This document shows, piece after piece, positions 8,751 to 22,053 of a stretch of 33,441 bases of DNA. Numbering within the stretch: the first letter of the stretch is position 1; each line of letters begins with the position of its first letter. The DNA is from Bacteroidia bacterium (GTDB lineage: Bacteria > Bacteroidota > Bacteroidia > DATLTG01): contig JBDTAC010000054.1 in the NCBI GenBank assembly GCA_039924845.1, forward strand, positions 105,308 through 138,748, given 5' to 3'. Below the pieces are notes generated by a model. That model was given only the letters and a program-made list of their open reading frames with translations, did not search any database and was not told where the DNA came from. Made by a program: the position numbers and the translations under genes.

Positions 8751-10160
8751 TTACAAACGAAATTCAAACGCAACTACAATACGATTTTCGGATCTCACCA
8801 AATCGGGTGTCCAACCTGGAGGAATAGGAGTAGTGGAGTATCCGCTTGGAGATGTTACACCACCTTCGCCTGCAAAATAAGGAACACTTGATTGACGATG
8901 TACCCATTCCGTTTTAAATTCAATACTTTGGTTGGGCATCCAACTAATTCCTGTAGAGCAATCCCAGCCTACAAATTGATCACCCGGATTTTCAGAGAAA
9001 GGATGTGTGCCTAATGTTTGTGTAGGATTAGCAGGGTTTGGGAGCGGACTTGCATCGCCAGTAGGCGCAAGTACTAAATAACGACCAGGATTATCAACCC
9101 ATCCACCACCAGCGCACCAAGCCAATTTATTGTGATGAAACCAAACACGATTATACACCATAAAACTTAAAAAATATTGTGCTGGATTATTTATCGGATC
9201 GCTATTATTAAAACCATTTACGCCATCGCCTTTTTCAAAACCAATATCTCCCGTTGCAGAGAAAGCCATTTGTGTAATTCCTTTTTCTGATTTTGCTTTG
9301 TGATAATACCTCCACAAATAACTATTGTCGGAATGAAATCGGTGCCTTCCTAAAAATCCAGCATCATCTGTTCCCCAATAATCATTCGATAAAATTTTAC
9401 TGTTTTCGGTATGACACCAAGTTATATTGCCGCCAACGCCTGGCAATTGATTAAACATACCGTAACTCTGCCAACCATTTATCAGCCAAGCTTCCACTTT
9501 TAAACATTTGGTAGGAAACATTTGTATACGTATTCCATTAAAAAACCAAGGCGTATTGTCAGATGTAAAAGAAGCTTGATATTCCCAATTTTCTTCTTGA
9601 TAATAGGAGTTAAGTCCGATGTAGGACATAAAAAGACCAGCATCTACATTAATTCCATACCATTTGTCAAAGTGGTATCCGGCATACGCTTCATCGAGGT
9701 AGCGATAGGCGTTCGACATGTCGTATTGACCGCGATACGTGCTTAAATCGTTTCTGGGAACCACTTCGGAACGTTCTCCAAATTGTGTCATAATTCTGCC
9801 ACGCGCATTTCCGTAACTGAAATCGCCTCCAAAATTAACAGCAGAAATAACCATTTCGTCATCGCGCGAAAGTGCCGTAGATCCCACAACTGTTTGATCT
9901 ATCGGATTATTAAATGAATGCGTGAAATTATTATCAATTAATATGCTGGGCGTAAAATAGGGAATGTGAAAGATGGAAGAATCTCTCCGGTCGTTTCCAT
10001 TTATCCAAGTTTGATCAAATCCTTCTAAAGGGATTTTTGCCGAAGCAACTTTTAGTGTATCTTTTGTTGAGAGTGCAATAGAGCTTCCGGGCTGTGCCAT
10101 TACCTGTATTGAAACCATTAAAATGAGGATTGTAAATAATGTAAAGTTTAATTTTTTCAT
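8751..10160 (-). CDS. Outer-membrane beta-barrel protein, Bbp2/OmpL-like porin
   Basis: A 469-residue exported protein with a signal peptide (MKKLNFTLFTILILMVSIQVMA, cleavage near AQPG). The mature part is rich in alternating aromatic and polar residues and ends in a strand finishing with an aromatic residue (VVAFEFRL), as beta-barrels do. Blocks such as DDEMVISAVNFGGDFSYGNA and LDEAYAGYHFDKWYGINVDA (about residues 99-118 and 156-175) fit my memory of the putative beta-barrel porin-2 family (Bbp2). It would sit in the outer membrane and conduct small solutes; the substrate is unknown. It is flanked by terminator-like repeats, so it is probably monocistronic. CAAAAGTA at 10204-10211 reads as a TACTTTTG -7 box on its strand, 44 nt upstream, but I see no convincing -33 box. 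Confidence 0.75.
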   Translation of the reverse strand: MKKLNFTLFTILILMVSIQVMAQPGSSIALSTKDTLKVASAKIPLEGFDQTWINGNDRRDSSIFHIPYFTPSILIDNNFTHSFNNPIDQTVVGSTALSRDDEMVISAVNFGGDFSYGNARGRIMTQFGERSEVVPRNDLSTYRGQYDMSNAYRYLDEAYAGYHFDKWYGINVDAGLFMSYIGLNSYYQEENWEYQASFTSDNTPWFFNGIRIQMFPTKCLKVEAWLINGWQSYGMFNQLPGVGGNITWCHTENSKILSNDYWGTDDAGFLGRHRFHSDNSYLWRYYHKAKSEKGITQMAFSATGDIGFEKGDGVNGFNNSDPINNPAQYFLSFMVYNRVWFHHNKLAWCAGGGWVDNPGRYLVLAPTGDASPLPNPANPTQTLGTHPFSENPGDQFVGWDCSTGISWMPNQSIEFKTEWVHRQSSVPYFAGEGGVTSPSGYSTTPIPPGWTPDLVRSENRIVVAFEFRL

Positions 10161-13192: not shown

Positions 13193-13293
13193 TGCTTGAA
13201 AAATTATTTTTTTGAAGTGTTTTTTTAGTTTGAAAAAATATTTTTTGGAGCCAAGAAATATTGCTCTAAAAAAGCATTCGGAAAATTATTTTT
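13193..13293. repeat. Three degenerate copies of the dispersed A/T element
   Basis: Copies at about 13193-13216, 13229-13248 and 13275-13293 lie between two convergent genes (the MFS gene ending at 13175 and the thioesterase ending at 13286). The first and third carry the ATTATTTTTT core in the same orientation; the second has only a TATTTTTT core. The position suits transcription termination from both sides. Confidence 0.6.
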
Positions 13294-13710
13294 TATTGTT
13301 TTCGATTATCGCAACGGTAAGGCGACTAATACAAACGAGTTTATTTTGTTCGTTAGAAATTCGGATGTCCCATACGTGAGTTTTACTCCCGATATGAATT
13401 GGACTACATACTGCTCTAACTTCTCCCGAAACTACAGGTCTCAGATGATTCGCATTGACCTCTAAACCCACTGCAATAAATTTAGCTGTATCAATTATTA
13501 AATTGCTGGCATAACTTCCCACCGTTTCTGCAAGTACAACCGATATTCCTCCGTGTAAAATACCCCGAGGTTGGTGTGTTTTTTGGTTACAGGCATTGTT
13601 GCTGTAAGTGAATTTTCAGTCCATTCCGTAAACCGTATTTCTAAATAAGTACCAATATATTCAGGTACCTTATTTAAGTTCTCTAAGTCAATTTTATTTT
13701 TCCAAATCAT
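13286..13710 (-). pseudogene. Hotdog-fold thioesterase (MenI/EntH-like), frameshifted
   Basis: Two reading frames together encode one hotdog thioesterase. Frame 1 starts at ATG 13710 and reads well through ENSLTATMPVTKK. Adding one A to the six-A run (T6 on the + strand, 13579-13584) restores the family sequence: TKKTHQPRGILHGG, then ISVVLAETVGSYASN and on to the stop at 13286. That would give about 141 residues, the normal length, with the HGG motif and the catalytic glutamate of LAE. Relatives hydrolyse acyl-CoA thioesters such as 1,4-dihydroxy-2-naphthoyl-CoA. It is a real mutation, an assembly error in a homopolymer, or slippage. The gene starts 20 nt from an attC-like site. mqnE in this window suggests menaquinone is made by another route. 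Confidence 0.8.
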
Positions 13711-13729
13711 TTTATTGTGTTTGTTTTAT

Positions 13730-13860
13730 TGCTAACGTTTTGCGCACTGGCGCAGTAGCGGTTTTGAAACACTAAACTGTCTGTATGCACGAAGTAAATT
13801 TAGTGAAATAATGTTTATATCCGCACTTCACCCGCTATTGCTGCCAGTGCGCTGTTATAA
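13730..13860. repeat. attC-like site 1
   Basis: TGCTAAC at 13730-13736 and GTTATAA at 13854-13860 are the outer ends. Arms GCGCACTGGCGCAGTAGCGG (13742-13761) and 13832-13852 pair along their length except for one bulged base and one mismatch. Inside, CACTAAA (13770-13776) pairs with TTTAGTG (13799-13805). The block GGTTTTGAAACACTAAACTG continues to 13783 and recurs at site 2. Confidence 0.6.
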
Positions 13861-13874
13861 GTTGGGCGGTTGTA

Positions 13875-14063
13875 TTGGCTTTCGGATATAGCGGTCGTTG
13901 CATGAGCGGTCGCGGTTTAAATTTTACAGAAGCGAAAGGAAATTTTCTTTTTACTACGCTACGCATACACAGGTGGGCGGGAGAATGGCAAGCTTATTTG
14001 CAGCCAAATACTTTCATTCCTTATTCTAAAGCTGCAAATGTGCTTGACATTGTGGGTTTGTGA
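13875..14063 (+). CDS. Possible small ORF next to attC-like site 1
   Basis: A 62-codon frame beginning 15 nt after the attC-like site, with WAGEWQAYLQPNTFIPYSKA near its end. The segment 13861-14145, between the site and the promoter of the antitoxin gene, holds no other candidate. I have a vague sense that similar peptides occur beside such repeats in other Bacteroidota, which would make it either a conserved small protein or a conserved non-coding repeat that happens to stay open. There is no recognisable domain, signal or membrane segment. Treat it as unproven. Confidence 0.25.
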   Translation: MAFGYSGRCMSGRGLNFTEAKGNFLFTTLRIHRWAGEWQAYLQPNTFIPYSKAANVLDIVGL

Positions 14064-14145
14064 GTCTACTGTATATAATATTTCAACACAATATCAAATA
14101 GGCGAATAATTGGCTAAATGTTTTTGTACGAATATTGAACAATAA

Positions 14146-14177
14146 TTTGTTTTGAATTGAAACAATGCTTATCTTTG
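14146..14177 (+). promoter_or_regulatory. Bacteroidota-type promoter with candidate operator
   Basis: TTTG at 14146-14149, a 20-nt spacer and TATCTTTG at 14170-14177 match the TTTG/TAnnTTTG consensus. TTGTTTTGAATTGAAACAA (14147-14165), paired at 7 of 9 positions, lies between the boxes and could bind the XRE domain of the next gene. Transcription would begin near 14183, so the translation start is ATG 14207 and not the upstream ATG at 14165. Confidence 0.7.
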
Positions 14178-14206
14178 TCACATTGAATCGAAATAAACAA
14201 ATTGAT

Positions 14207-15010
14207 ATGAACATAAAACTCTCACAAAAACAAATTGGTCAGCGAATAACTGAACTTCGTAAAATGAAGGGGTTGTCGCAGGAAGATTTGGCAAAAAGTG
14301 TCAAAATATCCCGACCGTCTTTGGCTCAAATAGAGTTGGGTAACAGAGGTGTAAATGTTTTTGAATTGCAACGGTTGTCTTTGGTCTTGGGTTTTTCATT
14401 GGATGATTTTATGTCTAAAAGTTTTTCAGTGAGCCAAGATATTGAAGGCAAAGTCGAAGCAAAGTCAAAGAAAACAGATGAACGAATTTCTGTCCCAACT
14501 CTGCAAGTCAACAAGTTCAAAAATGTTTTGCTATACATTTTAGAAAGATGTGCAGGCAAGCCTAATGTTGGCGAAACTGTGCTTTACAAATTGCTGTATT
14601 TTTCGGATTTCAATTACTACGAATTGTATGAGGAACATTTAACGGGTGCAAAATATCGCAAGTTGCCTTATGGACCTGTTCCGCAAAAGTTAGACACCAT
14701 CATTGGGCAAATGATGGAAAAGGGAATGATACAACGAATTAAAACAGAGTATTACGACAAAATGCAAACCCGTTATATTCCACTTGCGAAAGCTGATTTG
14801 ACAGAATTGAAAGCAAGCGAAAAAGAAGTGATTGACAAAGTCATTGAACAAATGAGTGATTGGTCGGCTTCTGCTATTAGTAGCTATTCTCATAAGGATA
14901 TGCCTTGGCTTGCCTCAAAAGAAGGAGAAGAAATAAATTACGAATTAGCTTTTTACAGAGATGCTCCTTTCTCTGTAAGAAACTATGGAGACGAAATTGA
15001 AGAACAATGA
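14207..15010 (+). CDS. Antitoxin: XRE-type HTH plus DUF4065 (Panacea/SocA-like)
   Basis: A 267-residue protein. Residues about 7-62 are an XRE helix-turn-helix (IGQRITELRKMKGLSQEDLA, then SRPSLAQIELGNRGV). Residues about 100-240 match the DUF4065 or Panacea domain (KLLYFSDFNYYELYEEHLTG, YGPVPQKLD). Panacea proteins are established antitoxins that neutralise many unrelated toxin types (PanAT systems). The stop overlaps the downstream start as ATGA, typical of toxin-antitoxin operons. The start is set by the promoter position. The DNA-binding domain and the palindrome in the promoter point to autoregulation. Its location between attC-like sites fits the frequent carriage of toxin-antitoxin pairs by integron cassettes. 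Confidence 0.85.
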   Translation: MNIKLSQKQIGQRITELRKMKGLSQEDLAKSVKISRPSLAQIELGNRGVNVFELQRLSLVLGFSLDDFMSKSFSVSQDIEGKVEAKSKKTDERISVPTLQVNKFKNVLLYILERCAGKPNVGETVLYKLLYFSDFNYYELYEEHLTGAKYRKLPYGPVPQKLDTIIGQMMEKGMIQRIKTEYYDKMQTRYIPLAKADLTELKASEKEVIDKVIEQMSDWSASAISSYSHKDMPWLASKEGEEINYELAFYRDAPFSVRNYGDEIEEQ

Positions 15011-15351
15011 CCTTTGAAGAATTAACTGAATTTAAAAAGGATTTGAAAAATCTTTTGAAAAAATACAGAACACTGAATGATGATTTGGATGTAGTGAAAC
15101 AAGTGTTGACTACTACACCGGAAGCAAGACCACCGTTCAGTTTTCGTATTGATAATTTGAAATTAGAAACGTGTGTAATCAAAGTGAAAAAGATTGCTTG
15201 TAAAGCATTAAAAGGTCGTGGTGTAAATTCGGGATTGCGATTAATTTATGCATACTTCAAAGAGGAAGGAAAAATAATTTTCATTGAAATATACCACAAG
15301 AATGACAAGGAAAATGAGGACAAACAAAGAATAATGGACAACTTTAAATAA
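15007..15351 (+). CDS. RelE/ParE-like toxin
   Basis: A 114-residue protein translated from an ATG that overlaps the antitoxin stop (ATGA). The layout is that of the RelE/ParE fold: an N-terminal helical part (EELTEFKKDLKNLLKKYRTL) followed by strands with basic and aromatic residues (VIKVKKIACKALKGRG, GLRLIYAYFKEEGKIIFIEI) and a short tail (YHKNDKENEDKQRI). RelE members cleave mRNA on the ribosome and ParE members inhibit gyrase; I cannot tell which applies. Pairing with a DUF4065 antitoxin is known for PanAT systems. Expression should follow the shared promoter upstream of the antitoxin. Confidence 0.8.
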   Translation: MTFEELTEFKKDLKNLLKKYRTLNDDLDVVKQVLTTTPEARPPFSFRIDNLKLETCVIKVKKIACKALKGRGVNSGLRLIYAYFKEEGKIIFIEIYHKNDKENEDKQRIMDNFK

Positions 15352-15381
15352 TAAATACTAAGATGAAAAATTTACAAAACT

Positions 15382-15500
15382 CAGCTACAAGAAGTTGGCG
15401 ATTTCGAAGCACTAAACTGTCTGCCACCACAAAATTTGATACGAAGCACAAAGCTTCATTTAACCACTGAACCGCCAATTTCTTGTAGCTGCTGTTAGCG
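15382..15500. repeat. attC-like site 2
   Basis: CAGCTACAAGAAGTTGGCG (15382-15400) and 15473-15491 form a 19-bp stem with a single G-T mismatch. The inner block at 15400-15423 (GATTTCGAAGCACTAAACTG then TCTG) is almost that of site 1. The right end is GCTGTTAGCG (15491-15500); the left outer end is degenerate. It separates two convergent genes and could also stop transcription. Confidence 0.6.
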
Positions 15501-15531
15501 GATGCCGTTCTTCCTTCGTTTCTACCGACAA

Positions 15532-16341
15532 CTAATTGCTTGTCCATAAAAAATTCAATTTTAGTTCGTCTTGTGTTATACTTACAAGCGTAAATGTCGC
15601 ACCGAATTCATACCAAGTATTATATTCCTTTTCTAACGTTACTTTTCCCCAATCTAAAGTAATTACCGTTTCATTCCATCCGTCACTTAATTCTGTTTTA
15701 TATCGTTTCAAATTTTTCATTTTAAGTAAGTCTGTACAATTTCCCGTTAAAGTGTTTTTGTCGCCAAACACAATAAAATTGTTTGTCATTTTACTTCTCG
15801 AAAACGTTAGAATGTCGTCTCGTTTTAAATCTTGATTTGAGGGTTGTAAGAACCATTTTCCAGCAATTTTTTTATCAAGGTCTTTTAGAAAACTTTTCTT
15901 TTTCTCTTCAATTTCCGAATGCTTTGTCTTGAATAATTGTTGGTCTAAAAAGTGAAAGTCTAGATTGTTCCAGTCGCAATCACCGTTTATGTCTATCGTG
16001 TCTTTATTGATAATAATTATGTAATGATTTTCAGAGGAACTAAGTCGGTCACATTTTCTTGGAAGTGATTTTGCTTTGTCTAGAAATTTAATGCAGGCGC
16101 CTATTTGTTTAGTATTGAGTTCAACAGTCCACAAACTGTCAATATTATTTCCGTCAAAATAGGTCGGAGAAGTGTGGTCTGCAAAGTATTTGTCGTCTTT
16201 GTAGTAAATGTTAATTTTAGAATGTGTTATTGTATTACATCCTGAAATATAAGTCAAGTTAAAAGCTGGTAGTTTATTATTTGGCTGTCTTGTGCCACAA
16301 GAAAACAAAAGGAATAATAAAATTGTCGGAATATATTTTAT
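15532..16341 (-). CDS. Cassette-borne lipoprotein of unknown function, ATA in place of the start
   Basis: I do not recognise this protein. Reading upstream of the first usual start (TTG 16308), the frame continues through IKYIPTILLFLLFSCGTRQ, a textbook lipoprotein signal with lipobox LFSC, to a stop at 16345-16347. The codon where ATG is expected, before KYIPT, is ATA (16339-16341). Translation from TTG 16308 would destroy the signal. Either ATA is used or the start has been lost. The mature ~255 residues are hydrophilic, with WNNLDFHFLD, a KKKSFLKDLDKKIAGKW segment and a C-terminal region of beta-rich look. It lies between attC-like sites 2 and 3, ending 32 nt from site 2. Confidence 0.6.
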   Translation of the reverse strand: MKYIPTILLFLLFSCGTRQPNNKLPAFNLTYISGCNTITHSKINIYYKDDKYFADHTSPTYFDGNNIDSLWTVELNTKQIGACIKFLDKAKSLPRKCDRLSSSENHYIIIINKDTIDINGDCDWNNLDFHFLDQQLFKTKHSEIEEKKKSFLKDLDKKIAGKWFLQPSNQDLKRDDILTFSRSKMTNNFIVFGDKNTLTGNCTDLLKMKNLKRYKTELSDGWNETVITLDWGKVTLEKEYNTWYEFGATFTLVSITQDELKLNFLWTSN

Positions 16342-16373
16342 TGATTATTTTCTTCTGTTTTATTAATTTCTGT

Positions 16374-16453
16374 CAGTTAATCGTTGCACTGTCGTTTTTT
16401 TACGGTTTCCGCTACCGTTCCGCCCACCTTGCGCTTAGCCGCTGTTACCAGTA
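16374..16453. repeat. Degenerate attC-like site 3
   Basis: The right end GCTGTTACCAGTA (16441-16453) matches the other sites, and the left part (TTAATCGTTGCAC) resembles TAACGTTTTGCGC of site 1. I cannot pair a full stem, so one half is altered or lost. GTTACCAGTA at 16444-16453 is the exact reverse complement of 16999-17008 at the other end of the next gene unit. Confidence 0.4.
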
Positions 16454-16469
16454 TGGTGGCGGCACACAG

Positions 16470-16955
16470 TTATTTTGTCATTTTAGCTTTGATTTCTTCT
16501 AAGTATTTGTCGGCCTGTGATTTTGTCAAGCCACCTCGATTAATTGCTGTCACGGGTGCTGTTATTTGCGCATTTACTTTGGCAACTTGAACAAGTTCAT
16601 TATTTACAATAATAGCAAGACTGTCACCAATTGTTTTACCAATAGCTTCGCTCCATTTTTGTCCACCTGCTTCATCAAGGTTAATGCCGATATAGTAGCC
16701 ACCAAGTTTATTTTGGTCGATGGAAGCACTTGTAAAGTTGTCGACCGTTATGATTGGAGCTGGGTTTAAATAATATTTTCTTGTCGTGCCGTAAAGTTGT
16801 CTTTGAAACTTGTTAGAGTCTTTGGATAAATAATAATAGCCGGTCACCAAATAGTTTGGGTCGGTTGATTTAGATTTGTCAGCCGTTGTGTTTTTTGTCG
16901 AACAGCAATTGGTTAAAAAAAGAATGAAGATTACTTGGATTATTTGTCTTGTCAT
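16470..16955 (-). CDS. Lipoprotein with a SecD P1-head-like domain
   Basis: 161 residues from ATG 16955, which begins a lipoprotein signal (MTRQIIQVIFILFLTNC, lipobox LTNC); an in-frame start at 16997 adds 14 polar residues and is rejected. Residues about 60-150 resemble the head subdomain of the SecD periplasmic P1 domain: ITVDNFTSASIDQ, INLDEAGGQKWSEAIGKTIG, DSLAIIVNNELVQVAKV. The SecDF membrane helices are absent, so a stand-alone periplasmic or outer-membrane lipoprotein is more likely than a secretion subunit; its role is unknown. The gene fills one cassette between attC-like sites 3 and 4, and its stop is about 17 nt from site 3. Confidence 0.65.
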   Translation of the reverse strand: MTRQIIQVIFILFLTNCCSTKNTTADKSKSTDPNYLVTGYYYLSKDSNKFQRQLYGTTRKYYLNPAPIITVDNFTSASIDQNKLGGYYIGINLDEAGGQKWSEAIGKTIGDSLAIIVNNELVQVAKVNAQITAPVTAINRGGLTKSQADKYLEEIKAKMTK

Positions 16956-17001
16956 AGATGATGTTAATTTTTGTCCTTGTGGGATTTGTCCCGCCACTTA
17001 C

Positions 17002-17175
17002 TGGTAACGTTTTGCAGCTAAAAGAAGTGCGGTTTGAAACACTTTCTACCGAAACGTTTAAATAAAGATACTATGTTTCTATGTATTTGCAATGCAAAAT
17101 GATTGTCTTTCGCGAAGCGGCATTTATTACAAATACTTTGATGTCCGCCCGCATTTCTTTTAGGTGCTGTTACCA
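17002..17175. repeat. attC-like site 4
   Basis: TGGTAAC (17002-17008) and GTTACCA (17169-17175) are exact complements at the two ends. CAGCTAAAAGAAGTGCGG (17015-17032) pairs with 17149-17169 except for a 3-nt bulge and one mismatch. The inner block GGTTTGAAACACTTTCTACC (17031-17050) is a variant of that in sites 1 and 2. The minus-strand gene stop at 17160-17162 lies within the right arm. Confidence 0.65.
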
Positions 17176-17987
17176 CCAGTTGTTTCGTCATTTTTTTTGC
17201 TTCGCTTTTTCGGTTTTACTTTTGCAGATAGTGTACTCAATGATTTATGAAACTCACTAGCGGTGTCTCTCGTTGGCTTATATCCAAAAGTTTTGTCGAA
17301 TTTATCAAACATTTTATCTACATATTTAATAGTCAATTCGACATAATACAATGTAGGTGTTAAATGCATTATTACAGGGTGTCTCAAATATTTGTGTAAT
17401 GGGTCAGACGAAGTTTGCATATTATATCTCCCAATATGGTTCCACATATTATGTGCGACAGAACTGAAGGGTTGGTAAGCATGATTGTACAAGTCAGTAC
17501 ATCCAGCTTCCTCAGCCATTTGTCTTACGGGAACTTCAGGCCAACTTTTTAAGTTTACGTCCGTCAAAAATGTATAGCGTTGTGAATCAATCCATCCTTC
17601 TATGGCGTCCATTTGCATACGAATTTGATCTGGAACCTCGACTTCAGAAAATTGATTTTTAAAATGTTCAAGGTGAAGTTTTTCTTGTCCCAGTCCGAAG
17701 TATATAAAGCGTTGACTTCGTTTCAAAGGATCAATTAGAATCCACGCAAAATTTATATAGTTATCAATTAAACTTCTCATCAATACTGGTCCAACATGGC
17801 TGTTCCAAAGAGAATTGTTACCGACTATGTTAATTGCCAAACAAATTTGTCGAGAAATTATGCCACTTATTACTTCATAAAGCTCGGGAGTAGAAACATC
17901 TTTTTGCCACCAATTCCAGCGATCTATTAAATCTTGTTCTAGATTTGCAATATAAGTCTTAAATATTTTTTCTATTTCATTTTTCAT
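17160..17987 (-). CDS. Uncharacterised helical protein, DUF5677-like
   Basis: 275 residues from ATG 17987. A longer frame to 18089 would add 34 residues inside the preceding gene and is rejected. I see a mainly helical protein with WNWWQKDVS near residue 26, LMRSLIDNYINFAWILIDP near 70-88 and HAYQPFSSVAHNMWNHIGRY near 168-187. This pattern reminds me of DUF5677, a family of unknown function, but I hold that loosely. The C-terminus is a basic tail (KVKPKKRSKK). No signal peptide or membrane helix is visible. The start overlaps the upstream gene by 11 nt, so the two are translationally coupled, and the stop lies inside attC-like site 4. Confidence 0.65.
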   Translation of the reverse strand: MKNEIEKIFKTYIANLEQDLIDRWNWWQKDVSTPELYEVISGIISRQICLAINIVGNNSLWNSHVGPVLMRSLIDNYINFAWILIDPLKRSQRFIYFGLGQEKLHLEHFKNQFSEVEVPDQIRMQMDAIEGWIDSQRYTFLTDVNLKSWPEVPVRQMAEEAGCTDLYNHAYQPFSSVAHNMWNHIGRYNMQTSSDPLHKYLRHPVIMHLTPTLYYVELTIKYVDKMFDKFDKTFGYKPTRDTASEFHKSLSTLSAKVKPKKRSKKNDETTGGNST

Positions 17988-18693
17988 CAAAATGTAGTGT
18001 TGTAAGAGTGCAAGGTGAATGTAAGTAAAGTGTATTCCAGAAATTTGCTGGCCACAGTGAATTTGTATTTGAGAACTCGCTGTTACCAATAAATATATTC
18101 AAAACAGAACGTATAGAGCTTGCAACCGCTCGAGATACATCTGTTTCAGGGTATTTTATTATTTCGCTAATATTTGCAATATGGCTACCTGCAGGAAGGT
18201 GAAATTTATTAGTCAGCATTAGATAATGCACTGTGCAAGTCAATGACTGAACCGCCAAAACTGAGCGCTTGTCAAGCAACTTATTTACAATATCTCTGAA
18301 ATATTCAATGTCTTCTTTTGTAGCAGGACCACAATCATAATCGAATATTTTTTTCATTGGCCAGTCAGGAAATAATCTAACAAGAATTTCACTTTTGGAA
18401 AGAATAGTTGAAAACTTAGTTCTGTCAAAGTCAATTTGATTGAATGAAATAAAATTACTAGCGAAACATAATGGCTTTACTTCAGAATTTGCCTTTAAGC
18501 TTACAAGAAATTCATTTAGGAGCGCACATGTATTTACGAAACCTAATGAGTCAATAAGTATTGCTTGCCAAGAAATTTCGGGAATAATTTTATTTATATG
18601 AGATATTTCTGACAAGCCGCCCAGCATGTGATTGAAGGGAGCGATTAACTTTCCTTTTTGAGGTTTATGGTCAGTTAAAACTTTCTTTGCCAT
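17977..18693 (-). CDS. Unknown protein, first gene of an overlapping pair
   Basis: 238 residues that I do not recognise. The N-terminus is polar and basic (MAKKVLTDHKPQKGKLIAPF), followed by helical-looking segments such as EISWQAILIDSLGFVNTCAL (about residues 40-59) and a VLAVQSLTCTVHYLMLTN stretch near 143-160. There is no signal peptide or obvious catalytic motif. It ends within the start of the DUF5677-like gene (11-nt overlap), which suggests that the products act together. A promoter lies at 18851-18880, leaving a leader of about 150 nt. The pair forms the last unit of the cassette-like region. Confidence 0.65.
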   Translation of the reverse strand: MAKKVLTDHKPQKGKLIAPFNHMLGGLSEISHINKIIPEISWQAILIDSLGFVNTCALLNEFLVSLKANSEVKPLCFASNFISFNQIDFDRTKFSTILSKSEILVRLFPDWPMKKIFDYDCGPATKEDIEYFRDIVNKLLDKRSVLAVQSLTCTVHYLMLTNKFHLPAGSHIANISEIIKYPETDVSRAVASSIRSVLNIFIGNSEFSNTNSLWPANFWNTLYLHSPCTLTTLHFDEK

Positions 18694-18720
18694 TCAGAGT
18701 TTTGGTATTTGGTTAACTAT

Positions 18721-18748
18721 GTAGTTATGTCCGCAATTGGTGGTACAT
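18721..18748. repeat. Possible attC-like remnant
   Basis: TTATGTCCGCAATTGGTGGT followed by AC resembles part of site 4 (ATGTCCGC at 17141-17148), and CAATTGGTGGTAC is close to the CAACTGGTGGTAAC expected as complement of the start of the neighbouring unit (GTTACCACCAGTTG at 17169-17182). It is too short to be sure. Confidence 0.25.
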
Positions 18749-18850
18749 CTTTCAAATAGACGCAACTAAAAAAACTATTTATTGCGTCAATCCTACCTCT
18801 TAGCTTATGAAAAGCGAAATAAATAATAAAAAAAAATTCTCTTTACGTTT

Positions 18851-21673: not shown

Positions 21674-21717
21674 TTTTGTAAGGTAGTTATTTATTTAAGA
21701 TGTTTATATAAAATGTC

Positions 21718-22053
21718 AATCTGATTGAACAAATAAGCAATCTTATTGAGCGTTTAGTCAATCTCACTGAACAACTAAGCAATCTCATTGAGTGTTTAGT
21801 CAATCTCACTGAGCATATAGGCACCCGCAAGTATTCGACAGACACCTGCAAGTATTCGACAACGACCTGCACCGAACATTTACGCACCTGCTTCGAGCAA
21901 TTAAGCAAATGCACCGAACGATGATGCTCCTGCAAGTATTCGACAGGCACCTGCAAGTATTCGACAACGACCTGCACCGAACGATGACGCTCCTGCAAGT
22001 ATTCGACAGGCACCTGCAAGTATCAAATAACGACCTGCACCGAATTATGACGC
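21718..22053. repeat. Array of 16 contiguous 21-bp repeats
   Basis: The period is exactly 21 bp over 336 bp. Units 1-5 (21718-21822) are of the AATCTCATTGAG type, units 6-16 (21823-22053) of the ACCTGCAAGTATTCGACA or ACCTGCACCGAACGATGA type. Units 11-13 and 14-16 form a 63-bp higher-order repeat. The array continues into a partial unit that contains the ATG at 22064. On the + strand the first frame reads NLIEQIS, NLIERLV, NLTEQLS, NLIECLV, NLTEHIG, a heptad pattern, until TGA near 21921, but a stop sits just before and no ATG follows it. There is no spacer, so it is not a CRISPR. Confidence 0.9.

Follow-up and report, generated by a model that had tools for sequence, protein, structure and literature searches.

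The locus analyzed here raises the question of whether a lipoprotein gene and the complementary sequences that enclose it form a mobile unit and, if so, of what kind. The window, by which we mean the whole 33,441-nt stretch of contig JBDTAC010000054.1 from a Bacteroidia bacterium (assembly GCA_039924845.1, positions 105,308 to 138,748), had been predicted from sequence alone to contain an integron-type cassette between positions 16444 and 17008, with a transposon-like element as the alternative. We conclude that the unit is very likely a cassette in an array of four, which belongs to an integron-type system typical of Bacteroidota. It is also likely that this system, which has a site family and probably an integrase of its own, is not an IntI integron.

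The sequence GTTACCAGTA at positions 16444–16453 is the exact reverse complement of TACTGGTAAC at 16999–17008, and inward of this 10-nt match, after a shift of 1 nt, another seven nucleotides are paired (GTGGCGG/CCGCCAC). Both parts of the match were claimed in the original prediction and are confirmed. Exact inverted repeats of 10 nt are by themselves unremarkable, with 101 pairs spaced by at most 600 nt in the window. The full end match has a local score of 16, and the runner-up among the 402 GTTA..TAAC pairs of the window scores 11. Comparison of the start of the unit, hereafter cassette 2, with approximately 514 cassette ends from other loci gave a top score of 11 and none equal to 16, and no shuffled end pair from 210 cassettes scored 13 or more. 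The end match is far above chance, although its 10-nt part alone is not rare.

The array contains three recombination sites and one site remnant (Table 1), and no recombinase is encoded among the listed open reading frames of the window. It meets the CALIN criterion of at least two attC-like sites with none near an integrase gene, as judged without running the standard integron software. Because the minus strand is the one on which the array is read, cassette 2 starts at 17008 and has its R''-type end at 16444; the orientation originally assumed is amended accordingly. For each site, an unbiased search was made for the upstream position that best complements its R'' end, covering approximately 2,050 positions per site. 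The best positions were 18749–18753 for E4 (within 2.3 kb upstream), 17008 for E3 and approximately 16416 for E2. Cassette 1 starts with GATGTACCACC, where GTTACCACC is expected from the R'' end of E4, and cassette 3 starts with GGTAGCGGAAACCGT, as compared to GTTAGCGGATGCCGT for the complement of the R'' end of E2, which only one of 514 other ends matched equally well. No convincing complement to the R'' end of E1 was found among its upstream positions, and the start of cassette 4 fails the own-end test. Site E1 itself was recovered in the search of its own genome with an E-value of 1.1e-18, but is one of the seeds of covariance model R1.

Table 1. Features of the cassette array, in the order in which the array is read.
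Feature	Positions	Strand	Basis
attI-like site TTGCGTCTATTTGAAA, head of the array	18750–18765	-	weight-matrix match at predicted start of first cassette
Cassette 1: two genes and site E4	17009–18749	-	end matching, Pfam
Cassette 1 gene, no family	17977–18693	-	Pfam
Cassette 1 gene, DUF5677	17160–17987	-	Pfam
Recombination site E4, attC-like, long loop	16997–17180	-	covariance model R1, 51.5 bits
Cassette 2 (the unit in question)	16417–17008	-	complementary ends, score 16
Cassette 2 start (R' half), GTTACCAGTA on minus strand	16999–17008	-	exact complement of 16444–16453
Lipoprotein gene, SecDF_P1_head domain, 161 aa	16470–16955	-	PF22599, E 3.7e-12
R'' end of cassette 2's own site, TACTGGTAAC on minus strand	16444–16453	-	end matching
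E3, remnant of cassette 2's site	16411–16443	-	sequence and end matching; no covariance-model match
Cassette 3: lipoprotein-like gene (15532–16308) and site E2	15376–16416	-	end matching
Recombination site E2, right R' end eroded	15371–15505	-	R1, 92.0 bits
Cassette 4: two genes and site E1	13731–15375	-	Pfam; end test negative
Cassette 4 gene, HTH and SocA/Panacea antitoxin-like	14210–15010	+	PF13274 E 3.8e-23, HTH_3
Cassette 4 small gene	15007–15351	+	weak RelE match
Recombination site E1, nearest to family consensus in window	13725–13865	-	R1, 97.4 bits

Several genes in or beside the array show features of their own. In cassette 3, the lipoprotein-like gene encodes a good signal peptide (IKYIPTILLFLLFSC) yet lacks an ATG (16308–16352, minus strand), and its reading frame apparently starts at ATA, which is either a rare start or a decayed one. 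In cassette 4, the HTH-SocA/Panacea gene overlaps the small gene (14210–15351, plus strand), and the two form a probable toxin-antitoxin pair opposed to the direction of the array. A thioesterase-like protein adjoining E1 (13286–13710, minus strand) is split across two frames, representing either a frameshifted pseudogene or an assembly error.

Cassette 2 differs from its neighbours in the state of its own site. Only 27 nt, namely the left arm AGCGGCTAAGCGCAAGGTGGGCGG plus AAC, separate its R'' end from the GGTAGC start of cassette 3. This remnant, E3, has neither loop nor right arm, which is why the covariance model does not report it, and the deletion suggests that cassette 2 can probably no longer be excised. 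Thus, cassette 2 is likely to be a captured integron-type cassette that is probably fixed today, its immobility being inferred. The original claim of a mobile unit holds in part, in that the cassette origin is supported, but the internal deletion of its site has probably left it immobile. No close relatives of its lipoprotein were found across 84,980 species genomes, nor any match in the plasmid search. Class-level homologues with 31–44% identity were present in four genomes, none of them flanked by sites or located in cassettes. At the family and order levels, the search covered only the genome itself. A sequence search for the unit elsewhere had been proposed as a check; no second copy of cassette 2 was found in the species-genome, class-level or plasmid searches, nor did an empty site for it come to light in the genomes covered.

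The sites belong to a family of folded hairpins of approximately 127 nt, with 113 of 242 being exactly 127 nt long. Their common layout combines a left-hand TAACAGC with a right-hand GCAAAACGTTA, the spacers measuring 1 nt versus 5 nt. Both sides of the stem have changed in 15 of 17 pairs, and the folding z-scores of E1 and E2 range from -3.8 to -4.4. By covariation and folding z-scores, the single-strand hairpin criterion of integron attC sites is met, while the use of the folded strand is inferred. A search pattern built from seeds of this genome matched at least 119 stretches in the species-genome collection, nearly all from Bacteroidota, and another 115 stretches of viral contigs. Family sites were detected in 243 of 395 sampled Bacteroidia genomes (E <= 1e-7). 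This search scored only eight candidates per genome and therefore gives presence rather than per-genome numbers, and the E-values of R1 are rough since the calibration was short.

Is the pairing of cassette ends a property of the family? The end test was applied to 210 different cassettes located between consecutive sites, drawn from 520 sites in the fetched loci. The start and end of the same cassette were complementary at positions 5–10 and 12–15 in 40–88% of cases, as compared to 27–67% for shuffled pairs, an excess corresponding to z-scores of 5 to 14, whereas position 11 was a fixed mismatch. At least seven contiguous complementary bases were present in 65% of the cassettes but in only 8% of the shuffled pairs. 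Pairing of R'' with R' within one physical site was at the shuffled background only. Such own-end pairing is expected if, in the circular state, the start of the cassette completes the cassette's site by serving as its other half. The pattern is that of integrons and extends the end match of cassette 2 to the whole family, supporting the original reading, in which the R'' end of a cassette's attC is paired with the first bases of that cassette. In 150 cassettes the largest reading frame was oriented like the site and in 42 it was opposed, while no frame was found in 18.

These results also bear on the alternative that the lipoprotein gene is the cargo of a small transposon-like element, with the matching sequences as its terminal inverted repeats. 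In its favour, the complementary ends, of 10 plus 7 nt, enclose a single gene. However, the unit encodes no transposase, its ends are located in recombination sites of a type that neighbouring cassettes also have, and junctions at other loci fall at G|TTA. The same pairing rule holds for 210 cassettes with unrelated ends, so that there is no fixed repeat. A transposon, which we consider very unlikely, was rejected for want of an internal transposase and for ends that vary between cassettes.

Comparisons between genomes confirmed that cassettes of this family are present or absent as precise units. Similarity between genomes tends to break off at the G of GTT. The two 10-nt bins around this base contain 52 of the 268 internal breakpoints, as compared to 4 for random positions. 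An 811-bp cassette with 96% identity is common to two genomes, both of its ends being exact. Two phage contigs, L161 and L179, differ by a 794-bp insert (8860–9653) present in L161 alone, with flanks that are 99.9% and 100% identical. The junctions in L161 read GAGTA|GTTACC and CATAC|GTTAGCC, and the empty site in L179 reads GAGTA|GTTAGCC. The ends of the insert are complementary to each other at 14 of 15 positions, position 11 being the mismatch (a count made by reading the sequence). A DNA-methyltransferase-like frame lies within the insert, and a difference of this kind between near-identical phages is possibly relevant to restriction. An empty/filled difference at AAAAC|GTT was also observed between loci of Flavobacterium celericrescens and F. 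aquaticum. The criterion for integron cassettes, namely attC-like bounds, a G|TT crossover and complementary R'' and R' of the same cassette, is thus met.

A further explanation takes the palindromes to be transcription terminators or structured RNAs and the end match to have arisen by chance. The elements do fold strongly and are intergenic. However, neither own-end complementarity nor GTT breakpoints nor the clean presence or absence of single units would be expected, the end match is far above chance, and no Rfam family matches. We regard this explanation as all but excluded.

The best integron-integrase-like protein of the present genome is a 355-aa tyrosine recombinase encoded on another contig, C21. 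It scores 195 of 220 bits against NF040815 and 184 of 265 bits against TIGR02249, not reaching the cut-off of the latter, and no IntIA-type integrase above the cut-off was found in this genome. Relatives of the C21 protein with 50–57% identity are encoded beside arrays. Wherever the examined loci have clear sites, the array and the recombinase gene are on different strands, L380 being the only exception. In L380, which is of the C21 type, and in a more distant group, the array lies downstream in the same direction as the integrase. Some of the examined integrase loci had been chosen because arrays were present. For the distant group, 20 loci were picked blind to sites. Sites lie within 8 kb of the recombinase gene in nine of these, in every case downstream of it and in the same direction. 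The chance of nine in 20 is approximately 2e-6 if 60 sites per genome are assumed, and approximately 7e-14 for 8 per genome.

Near the integrase genes, the start of the first cassette is preceded by a common motif, TTGCGTATATTNNNGA|GTTA. A weight matrix for attI was derived from six integrase-adjacent sites at other loci. Its top match in the window, at 18765 on the minus strand, scores 16.8 bits, followed by 12.4 bits for the next (66,852 positions), and coincides with the predicted head of cassette 1. The primary-site criterion of a recombinase beside an attI-like site is met in related genomes, whereas the window has the attI-like site but no integrase. Contig C21 stops approximately 400 nt upstream of its integrase gene, where GTTGCCTGCTACC resembles a cassette start. 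The attI matrix gives this upstream sequence 1.7 bits, rank 173 on the contig, which suggests that the C21 enzyme may not have built the array in the window. Close to the C21 integrase gene there is also a run of near-identical repeats (CATCAAACAAATAACATGCGC...; locus L025, 7680–7940), and a repetitive frame of similar style is found at 21687–22019 of the window. Many contigs end a few hundred bases from the recombinase gene, on the side of the array, suggesting that assemblies probably under-report arrays.

The system is not confined to chromosomal contigs. In Chryseobacterium sp. SNU WT5, an integrase gene with four sites downstream is located on a circular plasmid whose sequence is complete, which excludes assembly artefacts as a general cause. 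On seven viral contigs from IMG/VR (L175, L239, L252, L231, L210, L195 and L249), a short integrase of approximately 270 aa, a divergent relative, is encoded beside arrays of same-family sites and oriented divergently from them. Phage-borne systems of the integron type are inferred on these contigs from sequence alone. The cultured phages Freya and Ingeline encode a related integrase, but no family sites were found in the stretches examined.

Bacterial recombinases of this kind (A3, A4) have a conserved alpha/beta N-terminal domain of approximately 80 aa (WSxSxKxWY), which is apparently missing from the shorter phage forms. In a structure model (pLDDT 81, 13 sequences) the closest folds were XerA and then IntI4 (2a3v). 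The spacing between box I and box II is 94–97 aa in the array-side recombinases as compared to 136 aa in IntI1, and in the alignment with IntI4, 25 recombinase residues stand opposite 68 of IntI4. The tree places IntI1 and the IntI of the Bacteroidia genome G141 in a group of their own (100/99). Support for the deep fork is weak (76/89), however, with a meeting of long branches and only two IntI proteins included. NCBI labels some of these recombinases 'site-specific tyrosine recombinase/integron integrase', a family name without functional evidence. The enzyme is most likely an XerA/IntI-like tyrosine recombinase encoded beside the arrays; its catalysis is inferred, there being no recombination data.

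Could these nevertheless be ordinary attC sites in a classical integron or CALIN, moved by an IntI encoded elsewhere? The overall logic is the same, with attI, attC and GTT cassette starts, the IntI4 structure is the second-best fold match, and cassettes without a nearby integrase, as in the window, are known as CALINs (PMC8618304). The IntI-specific additional domain has been described as a defining characteristic (PMC9668308), used as a selection criterion for IntI genes (PMC2426708) and reported as essential for integron function yet not fully conserved (PMC8138268). Against this explanation, the array-side recombinases lack the IntI insertion and appear to branch apart from IntI, in a tree with a weak deep fork. 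TIGR02249 (cut-off 265 bits) was passed in only one of the 395 Bacteroidia genomes, as compared to the 243 with sites, and this sole IntI locus of the sample is without family sites. IntI was ruled out as the enzyme by its distribution and the absent insertion, and the classical explanation as a whole is unlikely. The classical frame of the original prediction is thus amended, in that neither the site family nor the associated recombinase is that of IntI integrons.

The likeness to integrons, including sedentary chromosomal integrons and CALINs, lies in GTT cassette starts, a folded site at the cassette end, complementary R'' and R' of the same cassette, a tyrosine recombinase gene adjoining the primary site, arrays whose genes are unrelated, and the occurrence of orphan arrays. 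The differences from IntI integrons are the lack of the additional domain in a recombinase that branches apart (a placement weakened by the deep fork), the conserved site length and layout given above, and own-end pairing that reaches 15 positions with its fixed mismatch. The VCR attC sites of Vibrio cholerae are likewise long and homogeneous, of approximately 120–130 nt, in chromosomal arrays. They differ from the present family in sequence, spacer layout and phylum, and the present genome has no IntIA-type integrase over the cut-off. XerA, XerC and XerD (NF040815; PDB 5hxy, 4a8e) give the closest family score, the top fold match and a similar box I–box II spacing. Unlike these, the present recombinase adjoins cassette arrays and an attI-like site, its bacterial forms carry the extra N-terminal domain, and some genomes have several copies. 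Integron criteria are met at the level of the system and IntI criteria are not met at the level of the enzyme, and we therefore call the system integron-type rather than an IntI integron.

The sequence match, the site family, the cassette logic, the precise presence or absence of other cassettes, and the proximity and orientation of integrase genes are shown; the scheme of excision and re-entry given below is inferred. A cassette consists of a GTTA start, usually one or two genes, and a folded site body of approximately 127 nt at its far end. Excision would occur at AAAAC|GTTA, followed by closure of the circle, in which the cassette start would become R', the right half of its own site, and pair with R'', the left half. 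The circle would then re-enter at attI or at another site. The substrate is predicted to be a site folded from a single strand, with strand use, synapsis and regulation proposed by analogy. Catalysis is attributed to the XerA/IntI-like tyrosine recombinase encoded beside arrays, the putative enzyme of the present genome being that on C21. On this scheme, the complementary ends at 16444–17008 would be a trace of the circular form, and the array in the window has kept an attI-like site (18765–18750) without an adjacent integrase. Cassette 2 would have been captured by integron-type recombination and later fixed as E3 lost its loop and right arm. Against the main reading stand the lack of a second copy of cassette 2, the failure of cassette 4 in the end test, the attI score on C21 and the direction of the L380 array.

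Surveys have rated integrons in Bacteroidota as rare, the reported cases being integrases on their own and, later, a single complete integron from Salinibacter ruber (PMC9024848). Taxon-specific attC models include none for this phylum (PMC8352920). Family sites are present here in 61% of the 395 Bacteroidia genomes. The open-access literature searched, which did not extend to preprints or most subscription papers, contained no earlier description of the site family or the system, and the core of the site was not found in any paper by full-text search. Standard integron surveys appear to miss these arrays, although the standard software was not run on the genomes.

A bolder reading, towards which we lean only slightly, is that Bacteroidota have an integron-type system of their own, in which the attC family is a separate one and folded sites are recombined by a XerA-like enzyme without the IntI domain. 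It would be present in most sampled Bacteroidia genomes as well as in phages and plasmids, would represent an independent invention or a very early branch, and would have been overlooked by tools trained on IntI and on attC sites of other phyla. The phage-borne arrays suggest a route for cassette transfer. If the recombinase works as inferred, a major bacterial phylum has a large system of gene exchange that is invisible to current software, and the necessity of the additional IntI domain for recombining folded cassette sites becomes directly testable.
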